Shown here: in pieces, positions 39,798-50,828 of the stretch
Position numbering within the stretch: position 1 is the stretch's first letter
Layout of the letters: every line of letters starts with the position of its first letter
Assembly (NCBI GenBank): GCA_015063985.1
Contig: SVTC01000001.1
Span: 108,311 to 172,310 of the forward strand
Direction of reading: 5' to 3'
Length of the DNA stretch: 64,000 nt
DNA from: Oscillospiraceae bacterium
GTDB lineage: Bacteria > Bacillota > Clostridia > Oscillospirales > SIG627
Notes under the pieces: generated by a model
Seen by the model: only the letters and a program-made list of their open reading frames with translations
What the model was told of the DNA's origin: nothing
Database searches by the model: none
Position numbers and translations under genes: made by a program

Positions 39798-39826
39798 TTG
39801 ACTTTATCAATTTACTGTGATATAAT
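39798..39826 (+). promoter_or_regulatory. Promoter of the aro operon
   Basis: TTGACT (39798-39803), 17-nt spacer, TATAAT (39821-39826), 33 nt before the leader peptide start. Confidence 0.87.
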
Positions 39827-39859
39827 GTCAACATCAAAAAATCACGGGAGGCAGCAATA

Positions 39860-39937
39860 ATGAAGAATAACAAGTTTTATTATTTCTTTTATTACTTTAA
39901 AAAGGGCTGCCCGTTATCTGTGATCTCCAAGGCTTAA
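39860..39937 (+). CDS. Phe/Tyr-rich leader peptide of the aro operon
   Basis: A 25-codon ORF, too short for the ORF track, with GGGAGG 9 nt upstream of its ATG. Codons 6-13 read FYYFFYYF: eight aromatic residues in a row, then KKGCP and a stop at 39935-39937. It precedes a DAHP-synthase-led operon for Phe and Tyr and is followed by competing hairpins and an intrinsic terminator. This is the architecture of proteobacterial pheA-type attenuation: ribosome stalling at Phe/Tyr codons should favour read-through. Confidence 0.85.
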   Translation: MKNNKFYYFFYYFKKGCPLSVISKA

Positions 39938-40008
39938 GTGCCTTGGCATAAATAGAACGGACAGTCCGCATTGGTCGTGGTTTTAAAAACCCGAAATGCG
40001 GACTTTTT
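39904..40008 (+). promoter_or_regulatory. Transcription attenuator of the aro operon
   Basis: Antiterminator: GGGCTGCCCGTT (39904-39915) pairs with AACGGACAGTCC (39956-39967), one mismatch and one G-U. An inner hairpin CCAAGGC/GCCTTGG is nested inside. Terminator: AGTCCGCATT (39963-39972) pairs perfectly with AATGCGGACT (39995-40004), then T5. The two compete for AGTCC. A ribosome reaching the leader stop would cover the 5' antiterminator arm, allowing termination. Confidence 0.85.
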
Positions 40009-40049
40009 GTTTTCTTGATACTTATTTTCCATGCAAGAAGGTGCAAAAA

Positions 40050-41078
40050 ATGGCAATGAATTTCCACAGAAAGCTTCCTATCCCTCAGGAGGTAAAAAAA
40101 GAATACCCCTTGACCGAGAAAATGGAAAAGGTCAAGGCAGAGCGAGATGAAAGCATAAAGGCAGTCTTCGACGGAAGCTCTGACAAGTTTATTTTGATAA
40201 TCGGCCCCTGCTCCGCAGATCACAGAGAGCCCGTGCTGGAGTATATTTCCCGTCTGCGCAGGGTCCAGGAGCAGGTTGCGGACAAAATAATAATGATCCC
40301 CCGTATCTATACCAATAAGCCCAGAACCACGGGTCACGGCTATAAGGGGATGCTCCACCAGCCCGACCCGGAGGCAAAGCCCGATATGTACAAGGGCATA
40401 GTTGCCATCCGCGAGCTTCATATGAGCGCCTTGAGAGATTATGATTTTTCCTGCGCCGATGAAATGCTCTACCCCGAGAACCACCGTTATCTGTCAGATC
40501 TGCTTTCCTACGTTGCCATCGGAGCGCGCTCGGTGGAGAATCAGCAGCACAGACTTGTTGCCAGCGGTATTGAAAGCCCCGTCGGAATGAAAAATCCCAC
40601 CGGCGGTGACCTTAGTGTTATGATGAACTCCATCGTGGCGGCGCAGTCCGGTCACACCTTTCTTTACAGAGGCTGGGAGGTGACCAGCGACGGCAATCCC
40701 TACGTTCACTCGATTTTACGCGGTTATCTTGATTACTCGGGCAGAAGCGTTTCCAACTACCACTACGAGGATCTTTTAAGAGTAGAGGAGCTTTACGAGG
40801 CTTCAAATCTTACCAATCCATCCATAATCGTGGATACAAATCACAACAACTCGGGCAAAAAATATCTTGAACAGATACGCATTGCAAAGGATATAGTTCA
40901 CAGCCGCAATCAGAACGGAGATATCAAGCGCCTTGTAAAGGGGCTTATGATAGAAAGCTATCTTGAGGACGGAGCACAGTCCGCCGGAGAGCACGTCTTC
41001 GGAAAATCCATCACAGATCCGTGTCTCGGCTGGGAAAAGACCGAAAAACTCATATTCGATATCGCGGATAAGCTTTAA
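40050..41078 (+). CDS. aroF: 3-deoxy-7-phosphoheptulonate (DAHP) synthase, class I
   Basis: Condenses PEP and erythrose 4-phosphate, the entry step of the shikimate pathway. It belongs to the AroF/G/H class (LIIGPCSADHREPVLEY, RIYTNKPRTTGHGYKG, GIESPVGMKNPTGG, IVDTNHNNSGK). 342 residues without an extra ACT or chorismate mutase domain. The start at 40050 has AGAAGGTG upstream; the track ORF start lies in the attenuator. Which of aroF/G/H it corresponds to cannot be told by eye. Confidence 0.94.
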   Translation: MAMNFHRKLPIPQEVKKEYPLTEKMEKVKAERDESIKAVFDGSSDKFILIIGPCSADHREPVLEYISRLRRVQEQVADKIIMIPRIYTNKPRTTGHGYKGMLHQPDPEAKPDMYKGIVAIRELHMSALRDYDFSCADEMLYPENHRYLSDLLSYVAIGARSVENQQHRLVASGIESPVGMKNPTGGDLSVMMNSIVAAQSGHTFLYRGWEVTSDGNPYVHSILRGYLDYSGRSVSNYHYEDLLRVEELYEASNLTNPSIIVDTNHNNSGKKYLEQIRIAKDIVHSRNQNGDIKRLVKGLMIESYLEDGAQSAGEHVFGKSITDPCLGWEKTEKLIFDIADKL

Positions 41079-41099: not shown

Positions 41100-42188
41100 A
41101 TGGCTAATAAGTTGGAAGAAGCAAGAAAGATAATCAACGAGGTAGACAGCAAAATGGCTGAGCTTTTCGTACAGAGAATGAGAGCCGCCGAAATGGTCTA
41201 CGAGCACAAAAAGGAATTCGGACTGCCTATTCTGGATCAAAAAAGAGAGGACGCGGTCATTGAGAAGAATTCCGCTTTGATCGAAGACGAGGTAATAAGG
41301 GGATATTACATTGATTATCTCAAGCATCTTATGAGTGTATCACGTGCCTATCAGTACCGTATGCAAAGCGGCCTGAAGGTCGCCTACAGCGGAGTGGAGG
41401 GTGCCTTTGCTCACATTGCCGCAAAAAGGATCTTTCCCGAGGCAAATTGCATATCCTGCAGTGATTTTAATGCGGCGTACAAGGCAGTGGCGAACGGTGA
41501 TTGCGACCTCGCGGTGCTCCCCATCGAAAACAGCTATGCGGGAGAGGTGGGGCAGACTATGGATCTGGTTTTCTCCGGCAGCCTTCACATCAACGGAATC
41601 TATGAATTGGAGATCCATCAGAACCTTCTCGGGCTTCCCGAGGCAAGGGTTGAGGACATAAAAAGGGTAACGAGCCATTCACAGGCGCTGAGTCAGTGCC
41701 ACGATTATTTAGAGCTGCGCGGCTTTAAAACCGAGGAAGCCACGAACACCGCACTTGCGGCAAAGGCAGTGGCGGAATTGGGGGATATATCCTACGGTGC
41801 CATAGCCAGTGCCGAGACCGCAGAGCTTTACGGCTTGAAGATCATTGAAGCCAACATTAATAAAAGCGGTGAGAACACCACGCGTTTTGCGGTGCTCTCC
41901 AAGGTGGGTGCTGATTCTCCCGCGCTTTCCAGCACGGTCCTCATGCTTACCGTAAAGCACGAGGCAGGCTCTCTTGCCAATGCGATAAGCATAATCGCTC
42001 AGCACGGCTATAATATGACCGCACTGAGGAGCAGACCTATGAAAAAGCATTCCTGGCAATATTATTTCTACATAGAAATAGACGGAACGGTAAAAAGCGA
42101 TAAGGGACAAAAAATGATAGCCGAATTAGGCAAGGTATGCGACACTCTTAAGGTTGCTGGAAGCTTTGCCCCTCACACGGAGATATAA
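41100..42188 (+). CDS. pheA: Bifunctional chorismate mutase/prephenate dehydratase (P-protein)
   Basis: Chorismate to prephenate to phenylpyruvate. Residues about 1-85 are an AroQ-type mutase helix bundle (VDSKMAELFVQRMRAAEMV). About 92-275 are prephenate dehydratase (VAYSGVEGAFAHIAAKRIF, VLPIENSYAGEV, NTTRFAVLS). About 280-355 are an ACT domain for Phe feedback (HEAGSLANAISIIAQHGYNMTALRSRP). 362 residues, 21 nt after the DAHP synthase gene. Confidence 0.95.
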   Translation: MANKLEEARKIINEVDSKMAELFVQRMRAAEMVYEHKKEFGLPILDQKREDAVIEKNSALIEDEVIRGYYIDYLKHLMSVSRAYQYRMQSGLKVAYSGVEGAFAHIAAKRIFPEANCISCSDFNAAYKAVANGDCDLAVLPIENSYAGEVGQTMDLVFSGSLHINGIYELEIHQNLLGLPEARVEDIKRVTSHSQALSQCHDYLELRGFKTEEATNTALAAKAVAELGDISYGAIASAETAELYGLKIIEANINKSGENTTRFAVLSKVGADSPALSSTVLMLTVKHEAGSLANAISIIAQHGYNMTALRSRPMKKHSWQYYFYIEIDGTVKSDKGQKMIAELGKVCDTLKVAGSFAPHTEI

Positions 42189-42198
42189 GGAAAAAGTT

Positions 42199-43212
42199 AT
42201 GAAGATACATTTGAATTTAGGCGAGGCAAGCTACGATATAGTTGTTGAAAGAGGTGTCCTTGCAAGAGCCGGCGAGGAGCTCGATCTTTCCCGACGTGTC
42301 CTTGTGGTGACGGATAGCGGCGTGCCCGTCCAATATGCGAGAACAGTTGCCGATCAGTGCAAAAAGGCGATCATATGCACGGTGGAGCAGGGAGAGGGCT
42401 CAAAAAGCCTCGAGGGCTTCGGCAAGCTTCTTGAGGTGATGCTGCAAAACGGCTTTTCCAGAAGGGATTGCGTTGTAGCGGTAGGCGGAGGAGTTGTAGG
42501 CGATCTTTCGGGCTTTGCCGCCTCGGTATATATGCGGGGAATAGATTTTTACAATATCCCCACCACTCTTCTTTCCCAGATAGATTCCTCCATCGGAGGC
42601 AAGACCGCCATAAATCTCGGCGGAGTAAAAAACATCGTAGGTGCCTTTTATCAGCCGAAAAAGGTGCTTATAGATCCCGAGCTTTTATCATCTCTTCCTG
42701 CAAGACAGATCTCCAACGGTCTTGCCGAGGCGGTGAAGATGTCACTTACCTCCGACAGTGAGCTTTTTGATATCTTCGAAAACGAGGATATTGAAAGCAA
42801 TCTGGACCGTATCATAATACGCTCTCTGAACATAAAGAAAAACGTGGTGGAGCAGGACGAAAAGGAGGCGGGGCTGAGACGGATACTCAACTTCGGCCAC
42901 ACCGTCGGTCACGGCATTGAAAGCAGTGAGGGCAACAGCCGTCTGTATCACGGCGAATGCGTTGCCTTGGGTATGATCCCAATGTGCGGCGAGGATATCA
43001 GACCAAGGCTTATAGAGGTCTTGAAAAAATGCGGACTTTACAGAGAAATAGAATACGATTGGGACAAGATAACCAAAGCCGCCTTCCACGATAAAAAGGC
43101 AGACGGTGATATGGTTACCGTGACAACTGTAAAAAAAATAGGCAGCTTTGAGATGAAAAAGGTAAAATGTCTTGAAGTAATAGAAATGTCAAGGGCTTGC
43201 CTGAAAGGTTGA
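42199..43212 (+). CDS. aroB: 3-dehydroquinate synthase
   Basis: NAD- and metal-dependent cyclisation of DAHP, step 2 of the shikimate pathway. VVAVGGGVVGDLSGFAASVYMRGI, PTTLLSQIDSSIGGKTAIN and the metal histidines in LNFGHTVGHGIE and LYHGECVALGM are intact. 337 residues. The start at 42199 follows AAGGA; the longer track ORF overlaps pheA. Confidence 0.95.
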   Translation: MKIHLNLGEASYDIVVERGVLARAGEELDLSRRVLVVTDSGVPVQYARTVADQCKKAIICTVEQGEGSKSLEGFGKLLEVMLQNGFSRRDCVVAVGGGVVGDLSGFAASVYMRGIDFYNIPTTLLSQIDSSIGGKTAINLGGVKNIVGAFYQPKKVLIDPELLSSLPARQISNGLAEAVKMSLTSDSELFDIFENEDIESNLDRIIIRSLNIKKNVVEQDEKEAGLRRILNFGHTVGHGIESSEGNSRLYHGECVALGMIPMCGEDIRPRLIEVLKKCGLYREIEYDWDKITKAAFHDKKADGDMVTVTTVKKIGSFEMKKVKCLEVIEMSRACLKG

Positions 43213-43216
43213 AGAA

Positions 43217-44305
43217 ATGAAAAACACCTTCGGAAACAGCGTGGCGGTTACAATATTCGGAGAAAGCCACGGAGAATATATCGGCGCCGTTATCGACGGA
43301 CTTGCACCGGGAATAAAGGTTGACAGAGAATATATCGCTCATATGCTCACTCTGCGCCGTCCCGACGGAAAAATATCCACACCCCGAAAGGAAAAGGATG
43401 AATTCAAAATAATAAGCGGAGTGGTGGAGGATACCACCACGGGAACTCCCGTGACTCTGCTTATCCCCAATGAAAACGTAAAGAGCGGTGATTACTCCGA
43501 AATGAGGACCGTTGCACGCCCTTCTCACGCCGACTACACCGCAGAGTGTAAGTATCACGGCTATCAGGACTCCAGGGGGGGCGGACATTTCAGCGGACGC
43601 ATCACCGCGGCTCTGGTTGCCGCAGGAGCGATATGTAAATTCGCTCTGGAGCAAAAGGGCATCCGTATAGGCAGCCACGTGAAAAAATGTGCGGGAGTAG
43701 AGGATCGGGACTTTCAGGATCTTCTTTGGGATATAGAAACTCTTAACCAAAAGACCTTTGCGGTGCTTAACGAGGAGAAGGGCGAAAAAATGCGAAAGGC
43801 CATTCTTGAAGCGGCATCGGAGGGGGACAGTGTCGGCGGAGTAGTCGAGACCGCCGTTGTGGGTATGCCCCAAGGCGTTGGAGAGCCCTGGTTTGATTCG
43901 TTGGAGAGCGTGCTTTCCCATATGCTTTTCTCCATTCCCGCGGTCAAGGGAGTTGAATTCGGCGCAGGCTTTAAGATCAGCGATATGCGCGGAAGTCAGG
44001 CGAACGATCCGATGGGAATAGCGGGAGACAGAGTATACACCGTTACAAATAACAACGGAGGAATAAACGGTGGTATTACCAACGGTATGCCAATTGTATT
44101 CCGCACTGCAATAAAGCCCACGCCAACCATATTCAAGCCTCAGAGCACGGTGGATTTCAAAACAATGACCGAGAGGGTTCTTGAGCCCAAGGGAAGACAC
44201 GATCCCGCAATAGTACACCGCGCAAGAGTGGTGCAGGATGCGGCGACGGCTATAGCTTTGTGCGATGCTTTGGCAATGCGCTTCGGTACGGATTGGCTAA
44301 AATAA
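43217..44305 (+). CDS. aroC: Chorismate synthase
   Basis: Reduced-FMN-dependent removal of phosphate from EPSP, giving chorismate (step 7). FGESHGEYIGAVIDG, the RPSHADYTAECKYHGYQDSRGGGHFSGR block and GDRVYTVTNNNGGINGGITNG are family signatures. 362 residues. 4 nt after the aroB stop. Confidence 0.96.
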   Translation: MKNTFGNSVAVTIFGESHGEYIGAVIDGLAPGIKVDREYIAHMLTLRRPDGKISTPRKEKDEFKIISGVVEDTTTGTPVTLLIPNENVKSGDYSEMRTVARPSHADYTAECKYHGYQDSRGGGHFSGRITAALVAAGAICKFALEQKGIRIGSHVKKCAGVEDRDFQDLLWDIETLNQKTFAVLNEEKGEKMRKAILEAASEGDSVGGVVETAVVGMPQGVGEPWFDSLESVLSHMLFSIPAVKGVEFGAGFKISDMRGSQANDPMGIAGDRVYTVTNNNGGINGGITNGMPIVFRTAIKPTPTIFKPQSTVDFKTMTERVLEPKGRHDPAIVHRARVVQDAATAIALCDALAMRFGTDWLK

Positions 44306-44324: not shown

Positions 44325-45572
44325 ATGAAACACTACGGTTGTATAGGAAAAAAGCTTACCCATAGCTTCTCAAAGGAGATCCATAAGGAGCTTGCGGATT
44401 ACGAATATAAGCTCATTGAGCTTGGAGAGGATGAGATCGGGCCTTTTTTTGAGAAAAGGGATTTTGAAGCCATCAACGTTACCATACCCTATAAGCAAAG
44501 GGTGATCCCGTATCTTGATAAGGTTAGCGATATAGCAAGGCGCATAGGAGCGGTAAACACCATAGTCAATAAAAAGGGCTCTCTTTACGGCTATAATACG
44601 GACTATTACGGAATGAAGGCTCTTATAGAAAGGGTCGGTCTGGTGCTCGAGGGAAAAAAGGTGCTGGTGCTCGGTACGGGCGGAACGAGCAAGACTGCCC
44701 GTGTGGTAGCCGCTGATATGGGAGCCGAAAGCGTACTTACCGTCAGCAGAAAAAAGACCGATGAATATATCAGCTATGACGATGCTCGGGCTATCCACAA
44801 CGACGCCGAGATAATAATCAACACCACTCCGTCGGGAATGTATCCCGACGTTGATTCCAAGCCCATTGATATTGCTCCCTTTTTTAAGCTTGAGGGTGTG
44901 ATAGATGCAGTATACAACCCGCTCTGCACAAATCTTGTGCTGGATGCAAGAAAGAGAGGCATTAAGGCCGAGGGCGGTCTTTATATGCTGGTAATGCAGG
45001 CAGTGGTTGCGGTTGAAAGGTTTTTGGATATCAAGATAGAAAAAAGCAGAGCCGACAGTGTATTTGCATCTGTTTTTGCCTCAAAGGAAAACCTGGTATT
45101 AACGGGAATGCCCGGAAGCGGAAAAAGCACGGTGGGAGCTCTGATCAATATAGAGGGATTTGAGCTTATTGATACTGACAGAGAAATCGAAAAGCGTTGC
45201 GGATGCAGTATAAAGGAGCTTATAGCCGCAAAGGGCGAGGTGTGTTTTCGCGATCTTGAAACGGAGGTCATCAGGGACGTATCCTCGAAAACGGGAAGGA
45301 TAATCTCCACCGGCGGCGGTGCCATACTAAGGGAGGAAAACGTAAGAAGCCTCAAGCAAAACGGAAAGCTTTTTTTTATAGATGCCGAGCTTTCAAGGCT
45401 TAAGGCAAGTGATGACAGACCTCTTTCCGATACGGCGGATAAGCTGACAAGGCTTTACAACGAAAGAATAGATATATACAAAGCCACCTCCGACGTAAGG
45501 GTCCCCGATCTTGCCACTGCTGCTAAAGAGGCGGAATACATTTTACAAAAGCGAATGGAGCTGATACCGTGA
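44325..45572 (+). CDS. aroEK: Fused shikimate dehydrogenase/shikimate kinase
   Basis: Two consecutive shikimate steps in one chain. Residues about 1-245 are AroE (GKKLTHSFSKEIHKEL substrate loop, NVTIPYKQ with the catalytic lysine, LGTGGTSKTA NADP loop). About 255-410 are AroK (P-loop LTGMPGSGKSTVG, DTDREIEKRCG, STGGGAILREEN, DDRPLS lid). 415 residues with no gap or frameshift between the parts. The last codons overlap the aroQ start by 4 nt. Confidence 0.93.
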   Translation: MKHYGCIGKKLTHSFSKEIHKELADYEYKLIELGEDEIGPFFEKRDFEAINVTIPYKQRVIPYLDKVSDIARRIGAVNTIVNKKGSLYGYNTDYYGMKALIERVGLVLEGKKVLVLGTGGTSKTARVVAADMGAESVLTVSRKKTDEYISYDDARAIHNDAEIIINTTPSGMYPDVDSKPIDIAPFFKLEGVIDAVYNPLCTNLVLDARKRGIKAEGGLYMLVMQAVVAVERFLDIKIEKSRADSVFASVFASKENLVLTGMPGSGKSTVGALINIEGFELIDTDREIEKRCGCSIKELIAAKGEVCFRDLETEVIRDVSSKTGRIISTGGGAILREENVRSLKQNGKLFFIDAELSRLKASDDRPLSDTADKLTRLYNERIDIYKATSDVRVPDLATAAKEAEYILQKRMELIP

Positions 45573-45997
45573 AAATATTTGTTATCAACGGGCCCAATCT
45601 GAATATGCTGGGCATAAGAGAGCCCGATCACTACGGGAAAGAGACCTACAGCGATCTTGTGGAAATGATAAAGGAGCATTGCCGCCAAAAGGGTATCGAG
45701 GCGGAGATTTATCAGTCCAATCACGAGGGCGATCTTGTGGACAAGATACAAGCCGCTTACAATAATGCCGACGGCATAGTTATAAATCCGGGCGCCTATA
45801 CCCATACCAGTATCGCTATTTTGGATGCGGTGAAATCCGTTAATATTCCGACCGTAGAGGTGCATATCTCAAGGGTGGAGGAGCGTGAGGATTTCCGTCA
45901 GATAAGCTATATAAGGCTTGCTTGCGTAAAGACCATAACCGGTCACGGATTGAAGGGATATCTTGAGGCAATTGATTTTCTGGCCGAGGATAAATAA
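45569..45997 (+). CDS. aroQ: 3-dehydroquinate dehydratase, type II
   Basis: Dehydration of 3-dehydroquinate (step 3). The small type II enzyme: NGPNLNMLGIREPDHYG with the catalytic Tyr/Arg loop, IYQSNHEGDLVDKI, NPGAYTHTSIAI, EVHISRVEEREDFR. 142 residues. It starts with GTG in a GTGA overlap with aroEK, so translation is coupled. Confidence 0.95.
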   Translation: MKIFVINGPNLNMLGIREPDHYGKETYSDLVEMIKEHCRQKGIEAEIYQSNHEGDLVDKIQAAYNNADGIVINPGAYTHTSIAILDAVKSVNIPTVEVHISRVEEREDFRQISYIRLACVKTITGHGLKGYLEAIDFLAEDK

Positions 45998-47200
45998 ATG
46001 ATAGCAAACATCTCACCTTTTAAGCTTAAGGGCTCGGTGGATGCCCCGCCCTCGAAAAGCATGGCGCACAGATACCTTATCGGTGCGGCGCTCTCGGGGC
46101 AAAAATGCACCCTTTCCGGAATTGATTACAGCGAGGATTTTCTTGCAACGGCAGACTGTCTTGCCGCGCTTGGCGTTAAAATAACAAAGAACGAGGACTC
46201 GGTTGAGATAGATCCCAAGGGCTTTATGAAGGTAAAAGCCCCGATCCTGGAGTGCAGAGAAAGCGGCAGCACCTTCAGATTCTTTATTCCTTTGGCGCTT
46301 TGCCTGGGTGAAAGAGTGGTGCTGCACGGCAGTGAAAGGCTTCTTGCAAGACCCCTTGACGTTTATGAAAGGATCTGCCTTGACGAGGGCTTTTACTTTA
46401 AAAAAGGTAGTAATACCTTTACTGTTTGCGGATATCTTAAGCATACCGACTTCAAGGTTCGGGGAGATATAAGCAGCCAGTTTATAACGGGACTGATCTT
46501 TGCCTTGGTCTATCTTGGCAAGGGAGGTGCGGTGGAGATAATCCCTCCCTTCGAGAGCAGATCTTATATCGACCTTACCATATCGGCACTTGCCTCCTTC
46601 GGTGCCAATGTGAAATTTACAGATCCATACAGAATAGAGATCACCCCGTCAAGGCTTGGAGCTTTCTCGGGCAGGATCGAGGGTGATTGCTCAAATGCGG
46701 CGTTTTTGGAAGCCTTCAATCATCTTGGCTCTGAGGTGAAAATAGGTAACTTAAAGCCGGACACCCTTCAGGGCGACAGGGTTTACTCCGAAAATTTTAA
46801 GCTTATCTCAGAGGGGATGCCCACCGTCGACGTGTCTGACTGTCCCGACCTTGCCCCCGTTATGTTTGCCCTTGCCGCAATGAAAAACGGTGCGGTCTTT
46901 ACGGGAACCGATCGCTTGAAGTCAAAGGAGAGCGACCGCGGAGCCGCAATGCACGAGGAGCTTAAAAGACTTGGCGGCGGACTTGTTTTCGGAGATAATT
47001 CAATAACAGTGCCAAAGCAGACTCTGTCCTATAAGGGAGAGCCCATCGACGGACACAACGATCACCGTATCGTAATGGCTATGTCGGTCATACTTTCTCA
47101 AACGGGCGGTGTGATAAACGGGGCGGAGGCTATAAAAAAGAGCTACCCCGGATTTTTTAGTGATATAATCGCTCTCGGAGCAAAGGTGGAATTAAAATGA
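45998..47200 (+). CDS. aroA: 3-phosphoshikimate 1-carboxyvinyltransferase (EPSP synthase)
   Basis: Adds the enolpyruvyl group of PEP to shikimate 3-phosphate (step 6). The PPSKSMAHRYLIGAAL block, ECRESGSTFRFFIPLA, SSQFITGLIFAL, and KESDRGAAMHEEL with DGHNDHRIVMAMSV are present. 400 residues, slightly short against the usual roughly 430. Directly abuts aroQ; tyrA overlaps its end by 4 nt. Confidence 0.95.
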   Translation: MIANISPFKLKGSVDAPPSKSMAHRYLIGAALSGQKCTLSGIDYSEDFLATADCLAALGVKITKNEDSVEIDPKGFMKVKAPILECRESGSTFRFFIPLALCLGERVVLHGSERLLARPLDVYERICLDEGFYFKKGSNTFTVCGYLKHTDFKVRGDISSQFITGLIFALVYLGKGGAVEIIPPFESRSYIDLTISALASFGANVKFTDPYRIEITPSRLGAFSGRIEGDCSNAAFLEAFNHLGSEVKIGNLKPDTLQGDRVYSENFKLISEGMPTVDVSDCPDLAPVMFALAAMKNGAVFTGTDRLKSKESDRGAAMHEELKRLGGGLVFGDNSITVPKQTLSYKGEPIDGHNDHRIVMAMSVILSQTGGVINGAEAIKKSYPGFFSDIIALGAKVELK

Positions 47201-48054
47201 TTGTAGACGTTAGTAAAAAAATTCTTATAGTCGGCCTGGGACTTTTGGGCGGAAGCTATGCCAAGGTGTTAAAGCGCTTTGGATTCCATATAAGCGCCAT
47301 TACTCTGGAGCAAAGCTCTATAGACTATGCCTTGAGGGAGGGCCTTATAGACGAAGGCTCTGTAAGTATTGACGAAAGGCTTGTAAAAGAGGCGGATCTT
47401 GTTATTTTCGCTCTCTACCCCCACGTTTTCGTGGAATGGATAGAAAAGAATCAGCATCTTTTTAAAAGCGGTGCACTTATAACCGATGTGACCGGTGTTA
47501 AGGGCAGCATAGTATATAAGATCCAGGAAATGCTTCGCGAGGACGTGGAGTTTATTGCAGCCCATCCTATGGCGGGAAGGGAGGTCTCGGGCGTGGAAAA
47601 CAGCACCGATAAAATGTTTGTCGGCGCAAACTACATAGTGACCCCCACCGAGAAAAACACTCCCGAGGCTGTAAGCACCTGTATGGAGCTGGGGAGACTG
47701 TTGGGCTTTTCCAACGTTACCACCCTTTCTCCCGAGGAGCACGATGAAATGATCGGCTTTCTCTCTCAGCTTACGCATTGCATCGCCATTACTCTGATGA
47801 CCTGCAACGATAAGGAGAATATGGAAAGATTCACCGGTGACTCCTTCAGGGATCTTACCAGGATCGCAAGGATCAACGATCTTATGTGGAGCGAGCTTTT
47901 CGTTGCAAATAAGCCTGCTCTTGTTGAACAGATGGATCTTTTCATAAATAAGTTCAACGATCTTAAAAGAATGCTGGAGCAAGAGGATATAGAGGGTATG
48001 AGGCAGATGATGCGCCATTCTACCCAAAGACGTGCTCTTTTCGATAAGAAGTAA
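47197..48054 (+). CDS. tyrA: Prephenate dehydrogenase
   Basis: NAD(P)-dependent oxidation of prephenate to 4-hydroxyphenylpyruvate on the Tyr branch. NAD loop ILIVGLGLLGGSYAKVL; catalytic-region motifs AAHPMAGREVSGVENS and QLTHCIAITL. 285 residues with no C-terminal ACT domain, so Tyr feedback may be absent or through the core domain. ATGA overlap with aroA. Confidence 0.93.
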   Translation: MIVDVSKKILIVGLGLLGGSYAKVLKRFGFHISAITLEQSSIDYALREGLIDEGSVSIDERLVKEADLVIFALYPHVFVEWIEKNQHLFKSGALITDVTGVKGSIVYKIQEMLREDVEFIAAHPMAGREVSGVENSTDKMFVGANYIVTPTEKNTPEAVSTCMELGRLLGFSNVTTLSPEEHDEMIGFLSQLTHCIAITLMTCNDKENMERFTGDSFRDLTRIARINDLMWSELFVANKPALVEQMDLFINKFNDLKRMLEQEDIEGMRQMMRHSTQRRALFDKK

Positions 48055-48067
48055 CGGAGGCCGAAAA

Positions 48068-48535
48068 ATGATAAGAATGGCACTGGAAAAGGATATACCA
48101 AAGCTTGGAGATCTTCTTGAGCAGGTGGATCTTGTCCATCACAGGGGCAGACCCGATATATTCAAGGTCGGCAGAAAATATTCCGATAGCGAGCTTTTTG
48201 AGCTTTTAAAGGACGGTAGCCGCCCCATACTTGTTTCCGTGGATGAAAATGATGTTGTTATGGGCTACTGCTTTTGCATTTATCAGCAGCATTTTAACAA
48301 CTCTGTTCTTACCGATATAAAGACCTTGTATATCGACGACCTTTGCGTTGATGAAAAAATGCGGGGAAGGCACGTCGGTAAGGAGCTTTACGAGGCGGCG
48401 GTGGAGCTTGCAAAAAAAAGCGGCTGCTATAACCTTACACTCAATGTTTGGAGCTGTAACCCCTCCGCTATGGGCTTCTATGAGGCACAAGGACTCCTGC
48501 CCCAGAAGGTGGGTATGGAGCTGATATTGAAATAA
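48068..48535 (+). CDS. GNAT family N-acetyltransferase, last gene of the aro operon
   Basis: Acetyl-CoA-dependent N-acetyltransferase of unknown substrate. The core motif A is DLCVDEKMRGRHVGKELYEAA and motif B lies around NLTLNVWSCNPSAMGFYEAQGL. 155 residues. The start at MIRMALE (48068) has GGAGG 8 nt upstream. It is 13 nt after tyrA with no promoter between, so it is co-transcribed with Phe/Tyr synthesis. A role on aromatic amines or amino acids is possible but not shown. Confidence 0.85.
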   Translation: MIRMALEKDIPKLGDLLEQVDLVHHRGRPDIFKVGRKYSDSELFELLKDGSRPILVSVDENDVVMGYCFCIYQQHFNNSVLTDIKTLYIDDLCVDEKMRGRHVGKELYEAAVELAKKSGCYNLTLNVWSCNPSAMGFYEAQGLLPQKVGMELILK

Positions 48536-50715: not shown

Positions 50716-50812
50716 GGCAGCGGGATGCGAAGCCTCGACCGCAAGAATACTTTTCGTCCGCCCGTCAACTCCCCGTACGAGGCGGCACTTAACGCCGATG
50801 CTTCTACTCTGC
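50716..50812 (-). ncRNA. Tetrahydrofolate (THF) riboswitch
   Basis: The minus-strand leader contains the conserved blocks AGAGTAGA, GCGTTAAGTGCC, GGGGAGTTG, GGACGAAAAG, TTGCGGT and CATCCCGCTGCC in the order of the known folT-associated THF aptamer. Paired ends GGCAGCGG / GCAGAGTAG-side helices close the pseudoknotted fold. It controls folT and folC. Confidence 0.93.
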
Positions 50813-50828
50813 TTATGAACGTATTCAT

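Follow-up and report, generated by a model that had tools for sequence, protein, structure and literature searches.

Within the 64,000-nucleotide stretch of DNA analysed here (the window), a plus-strand operon of nine genes begins with a DAHP synthase of the AroFGH type (aroF, 40050-41078), of which no second copy was found in the genome. It continues with chorismate mutase/prephenate dehydratase (CM-PDT, pheA, 41100-42188), 3-dehydroquinate synthase (aroB, 42154-43212, whose true start may lie downstream of 42154), chorismate synthase (aroC, 43217-44305), a fused shikimate dehydrogenase/shikimate kinase (aroE-aroK, 44325-45572), type II 3-dehydroquinate dehydratase (aroQ, 45569-45997), EPSP synthase (aroA, 45998-47200), prephenate dehydrogenase (tyrA, 47197-48054) and a GNAT-like acetyltransferase that overlaps tyrA and is possibly the last gene (48032-48535). 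All seven shikimate steps are encoded together with the Phe branch and the Tyr branch, and there is no aminotransferase among the nine genes. The preliminary description had named this a complete shikimate operon of a Firmicute with DAHP synthase first, as the identities of the downstream genes confirm; the host belongs to the Bacillota, and its relatives carry the names Oscillospiraceae, Lachnospiraceae or Clostridia.

A leader ORF and competing helices precede the operon

Upstream of aroF lies a leader peptide ORF of 25 codons plus TAA (39860-39937, plus strand, ATG at 39860; MKNNKFYYFFYYFKKGCPLSVISKA), preceded at a distance of 8 nt by the Shine-Dalgarno (SD) sequence GGGAGG (39846-39851). 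Its codons 6-13 (39875-39898) read Phe-Tyr-Tyr-Phe-Phe-Tyr-Tyr-Phe (FYYFFYYF), exactly as first described. When the leader region was shuffled with dinucleotides preserved, a run of at least eight Phe/Tyr codons in an ORF arose in none of 20,000 shuffles, and a run of at least six in two. The element had been placed at 39860-40008, and these coordinates are right for the part that they cover, but the feature reaches further upstream, to a sigma-70 promoter (TTGACT-17-TATAAT, 39798-39826, plus strand) that matches the consensus at 11 of 12 positions.

Four segments of the plus strand can pair in alternative ways. Segment 1 (39841-39855) overlaps the leader SD, and its ATCAC and GGCAGC can pair with GCTGCC and GTGAT of segment 2 (39906-39924 within 39904-39925) to form helix 1:2, which is predicted to sequester the leader's own SD. 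Segment 2, beginning GGGCTGCCCGTT, is also the 5' strand of the antiterminator, in which 39904-39915 pairs with 39956-39967 (GGGCTGCCCGTT:AACGGACAGTCC). Segment 3 (39956-39972; AACGGACAGTCCGCATT) provides both the 3' strand of the antiterminator and the 5' strand of an intrinsic terminator (39963-40008), in which 39963-39972 pairs with 39995-40004 (AGTCCGCATT:AATGCGGACT) in a perfect 10-bp helix followed by a T-run (40004-40008). Since AGTCC (39963-39967) is common to both, antiterminator and terminator are mutually exclusive. A 12-bp antiterminator and a perfect 10-bp terminator sharing AGTCC had been proposed, and all of this stands except that the antiterminator forms only 11 of 12 pairs, with one C-A mismatch and one G-U pair. 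Inside the antiterminator, a central 7-bp hairpin (CCAAGGC/GCCTTGG, 39927-39946) overlaps the leader stop codon; this hairpin, the upstream promoter and the third helix, in which the SD region pairs with the antiterminator strand, had all been overlooked. The fold of 39850-40015 has a z-score of -6.0, and none of 200 shuffles was equally stable. At Rfam gathering scores the window holds neither an amino acid leader (Phe_leader and kin) nor a T-box (RF00230); only a THF riboswitch was found (50716-50813, minus strand), upstream of a minus-strand folC-like gene.

The element is conserved upstream of related DAHP synthase genes

We took 80 related DAHP synthase loci, 79 of which include the upstream side. 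An element lies close upstream of the DAHP synthase gene in 28 of the 79, 27 with an obvious aromatic leader and one (L020) with a degenerate leader (MMNHQFTFIFPQGC...) that is yet a clear covariance match (58.5 bits); at a further locus (L043) it lies about 2 kb further upstream. A scan of the 80 loci (1.05 Mb of strand sequence) recovered these leaders and no other short ORF with an SD and at least six Phe/Tyr codons in eight. Of the 416 codons in the best eight-codon windows of 52 leaders, 171 specify Phe and 173 Tyr (344 together). Third bases are T (269), C (108), A (22) and G (17), and a Trp codon occurs once, outside the aromatic run. The alignment of leaders upstream of aroF, which had been suggested as a check, therefore finds both the aromatic run and the hairpins kept in many relatives, with Phe and Tyr codons about equal in number.

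Both competing helices covary. Over 30 aligned elements, 82.7% of antiterminator cells and 92% of terminator cells are paired, with both sides changed in 7 of 12 and 9 of 10 pairs, respectively, and none of the 500 column shuffles or slid controls equals either helix in paired cells or covariation score. This is strong evidence for the two helices, to which, the sequences being related, no formal probability is attached. Because the central hairpin and segment 1 were poorly registered in the first alignment, we set per-sequence duplex energies beside the column counts. Mean energies over the 30 leaders were -19.4 kcal/mol for duplex 1:2 (-9.3 in shuffled sequences) and -8.3 kcal/mol for the central hairpin (-3.7 shuffled), whose sequence varies while its pairing is often kept; the per-sequence mean for duplex 2:3 was -16.0 kcal/mol (-7.1 shuffled). 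Helix 1:2 is strong in the window and in 27 of the 30 elements, and is missing from L028 and from the second of two copies at L013 and L017. At these last two loci, two complete elements stand in series before one DAHP synthase gene (L013:2572-2950 and L017:678-1035). Promoters are absent before the second copies (scores 8 and 6), which should thus depend on readthrough of the first.

 A sigma-70 site matching at least 10 of 12 positions lies at a similar place upstream of the leader in 43 of 50 elements, the window included, and downstream of the terminator in only 1 of 50; mean scores are 10.5 upstream, 7.7 in shuffled sequence and 6.9 downstream. Transcription starting downstream of 40008 is contradicted by this distribution.

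Two loci of genus g3, in the window's family (L087, L092), carry an aromatic leader of the FASFYFYFSAVFFYCAHFGMQKLPV type about 180 nt upstream of aroF with a terminator of its own; this leader falls outside the covariance model and is apparently a second attenuator design. At another locus (L036) a Phe-rich leader without Tyr (MNNKLNFNNNFAFSFSFFGFTAEGVNLLCKNV) lies about 190 nt upstream of aroF and is followed by a strong terminator.

Distribution across the order, class and phylum

A first covariance model (R1) matched 27 of 394 genomes of the order at an E-value of 0.01; of these, 21 proved on inspection to have aromatic leaders and belong to families f1, f15, f16, f18, f19 and f23. Six matched loci (L114, L118, L121-L124; E 8e-5 to 8e-3) were discarded since they have no aromatic leader, and weak minus-strand matches (E 0.01-0.04) were ignored, as they overlap plus-strand elements and represent their near-palindromic complement. 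A second model (R2), trained on the order matches of R1, recovers the same 21 genomes at E 0.001, and a run over family f19 matched 15 of its 63 genomes. In the class it adds three families (f34, f40, f99), where only L131, L133 and L134 are new and L132 repeats the sequence of L029. Across 398 genomes sampled over the phylum, R2 found nothing besides the window's own genome. Aromatic leaders accompany all confident matches, which span six families within the order and three others within the class. Within the order the element occurs patchily, in 21 of 394 genomes, and the only other genome of the window's genus, with a DAHP synthase 67% identical, lacks it. Nearly all sequences compared are draft or metagenome-assembled genomes.

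The element heads operons that start with DAHP synthase, CM/prephenate dehydratase or a class I aminotransferase (NF005305). The last arrangement was seen at six loci (L107, L108, L110, L112, L115, L117), with NF005305 assigned by family scan at L107 and L112, and its presence under the attenuator suggests that this aminotransferase is a Phe/Tyr transaminase. Several genomes without a leader near DAHP synthase have an element 7-9 kb upstream on the same contig (in G009, contig C68, at 37553 as against 45917), apparently at the operon start.

T-boxes occupy the same place in close relatives

In nine close relatives (loci L005, L011, L015, L018, L024, L025, L030, L033 and L041) a T-box above the Rfam gathering score lies upstream of DAHP synthase or of the gene just before it. 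Read by eye, the codon that follows GAA, where the specifier is expected, is UUC (Phe), and these replacing T-boxes are apparently Phe-specific. The preliminary expectation that Firmicutes use T-boxes here thus holds for these relatives, but the rarity of attenuation that it implied was overstated. T-box and leader loci are interspersed in the DAHP synthase tree with low supports, and the well-supported branches force one or two changes only; a count of exchanges from this tree was dropped because the supports are too weak. Genome G042 has two DAHP synthase genes (the L022/L025 loci), one under a leader and the other under a T-box (L025). The window's own genome contains six T-box matches, two above the cut-off. 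One of those below it precedes a TrpB-like gene (L129, G000:C28:5548-5790; below Rfam's gathering score, 85 bits); given its position, the Trp branch in this genome is probably run by a T-box.

A model for attenuation by Phe and Tyr

Very probably, the element attenuates transcription in the classical ribosome-mediated way, in response to charged tRNA-Phe and tRNA-Tyr. It combines a short SD-bearing ORF rich in codons for the end products, an antiterminator and an intrinsic terminator that exclude each other and both covary, and a protector helix 1:2, with a promoter upstream of the leader and cognate pathway genes downstream. From this observed anatomy, conservation, covariation, promoter position and gene context we infer ribosome stalling, the tRNA specificity, and actual termination and readthrough. 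RNA polymerase would start about 30 nt upstream of the leader, and a ribosome would begin to translate it. A shortage of Phe or Tyr would stall the ribosome within codons 6-13, freeing segment 2 (39904-39915) to pair with segment 3 (39956-39967); helix 2:3 would block the terminator, and the whole shikimate/Phe/Tyr operon would be transcribed. When both amino acids are plentiful, the ribosome would pass over segment 2 to the stop codon, so that segment 2 would first be covered and then re-pair with segment 1 in the SD region, helix 3:4 would form, and transcription would stop before aroF. The default without translation would be 1:2 together with 3:4.

Constraint folding, in which the ribosome was modelled as a 29-nt footprint (with codon positions one base off frame, which we judge immaterial), is consistent with this scheme. 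With polymerase just past segment 3, helices 1:2 and 2:3 are even in the absence of a ribosome, and 2:3 has a probability of 0.80-0.87 once a ribosome occupies codons 6-11. With the ribosome at codons 16-20 this probability is 0, and near the stop codon 1:2 reaches 0.64-0.99. In the complete transcript 3:4 prevails at equilibrium (0.96), and a ribosome at codons 6-12 does not alter this outcome; the switch must therefore be kinetic, as in other attenuators. Judged by the simple footprint, a ribosome at codons 6-11 falls slightly short of covering segment 1, whose position is directly behind a ribosome stalled at codon 6. Thus, helix 1:2 must be blocked sterically or by SD-antiSD pairing, and we infer that contact between SD and antiSD, together with crowding, keeps segment 1 away from segment 2; the model is weakest at this step.

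It is possible, although improbable, that the attenuator senses Phe only and that the Tyr codons are present merely as similar U/A-rich codons. Such a reading would agree with the apparent Phe specificity (UUC) of the replacing T-boxes and with the Phe-rich leader without Tyr at L036. However, Tyr and Phe codons occur at equal frequency in the leaders (173 and 171), and the operon holds tyrA besides pheA, both of which argue for joint sensing.

There is very little likelihood that the peptide itself arrests the ribosome, as in TnaC and the erm leaders, with the KGCPS tail as arrest motif in place of slow decoding of Phe and Tyr. While a GCPS(F/L)V tail is kept in many leaders, the codons of this tail are also the antiterminator strand. 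At L031, L046 and L101 the conserved GCTGCCCG is translated in a different frame, these loci carrying GGCTGCCCG, and the same RNA encodes (R/K)AAR, indicating that selection acts on the RNA and not on the peptide tail. At L040, where much of the antiterminator sequence has changed, GGTCGTTTAT replaces GGGCTGCCCG with AACGACC opposite, so that the tail reads GRLS and the helices still form, and the leaders of L008, L022 and L037 end a few codons past segment 2. The most natural reading of the conserved KGCPS tail is that it comes as a by-product of the RNA. Least probable of all is control of the terminator by a ligand-binding riboswitch or a TRAP-like protein-bound leader with an incidental ORF: the RNA structure is extensively conserved, but nothing at the locus matches Rfam at gathering thresholds, homologues retain the SD and an ORF rich in Phe/Tyr codons, whose third bases are mostly T or C, and the conserved part outside the ORF hardly exceeds the competing helices.

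Relation to known attenuators

No description of an aromatic leader peptide in Clostridia was found in the open-access literature. It is plausible, with about equal weight on either side, that the elements form an undescribed class in Clostridia that senses Phe and Tyr jointly, uses its own SD as protector helix, can be stacked in tandem and is swapped with Phe T-boxes. If true, a protector helix formed by the SD would imply that one pioneer ribosome reads each transcript. With this element, a well-supported aromatic leader-peptide attenuator is added to gut Clostridia, in which one would expect T-boxes. Among close relatives one gene is controlled by one sensor or the other, so that regulator replacement can be tested, and within the window's genome a T-box apparently serves the Trp branch and ribosome attenuation the Phe/Tyr branch. 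A covariance model of the family could serve to annotate aromatic operons.

The pheL, trpL and hisL leaders of enterobacteria consist of a leader ORF with control codons, competing 1:2, 2:3 and 3:4 helices and a U-tract terminator before the cognate operon. The window element resembles them in its control-codon ORF, in segments 1-4 and in the terminator before a cognate operon. It differs in its mixed Phe/Tyr run, in heading a whole shikimate, Phe and Tyr operon, in its occurrence in Clostridia, in the overlap of segment 1 with the SD and in having no Rfam match. T-box leaders (RF00230), which in close relatives govern the same genes, respond to uncharged tRNA, but they bind it directly and have no leader peptide. 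Leader-peptide attenuation is also shown or predicted in Actinobacteria (PMC1262725). Upstream of aroF in Acholeplasma, uORFC-13-1 is a predicted uORF with one or more Phe codons beside a terminator, reported in 24 examples from Acholeplasma and environmental sequences only (PMC8632094); the text on it mentions no amino acid but Phe, along with a further paired substructure, and we liken it to the window element by description only. Within the Bacillota, His leader peptides predicted upstream of hisS/hisZ in bacilli (PMC2965389) are alike in substituting for a T-box, but concern histidine and tRNA synthetase paralogues. The ilv-leu leaders of Listeria (Rli60; PMC5864092) and S. aureus (PMC5794164), where ribosome-mediated attenuation has mutational support, are by description of the same mechanism type and differ in responding to branched-chain amino acids and in belonging to Bacilli. 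Given these his and ilv-leu precedents in the Bacillota, what is new here is a member of the family and not the kind of mechanism.
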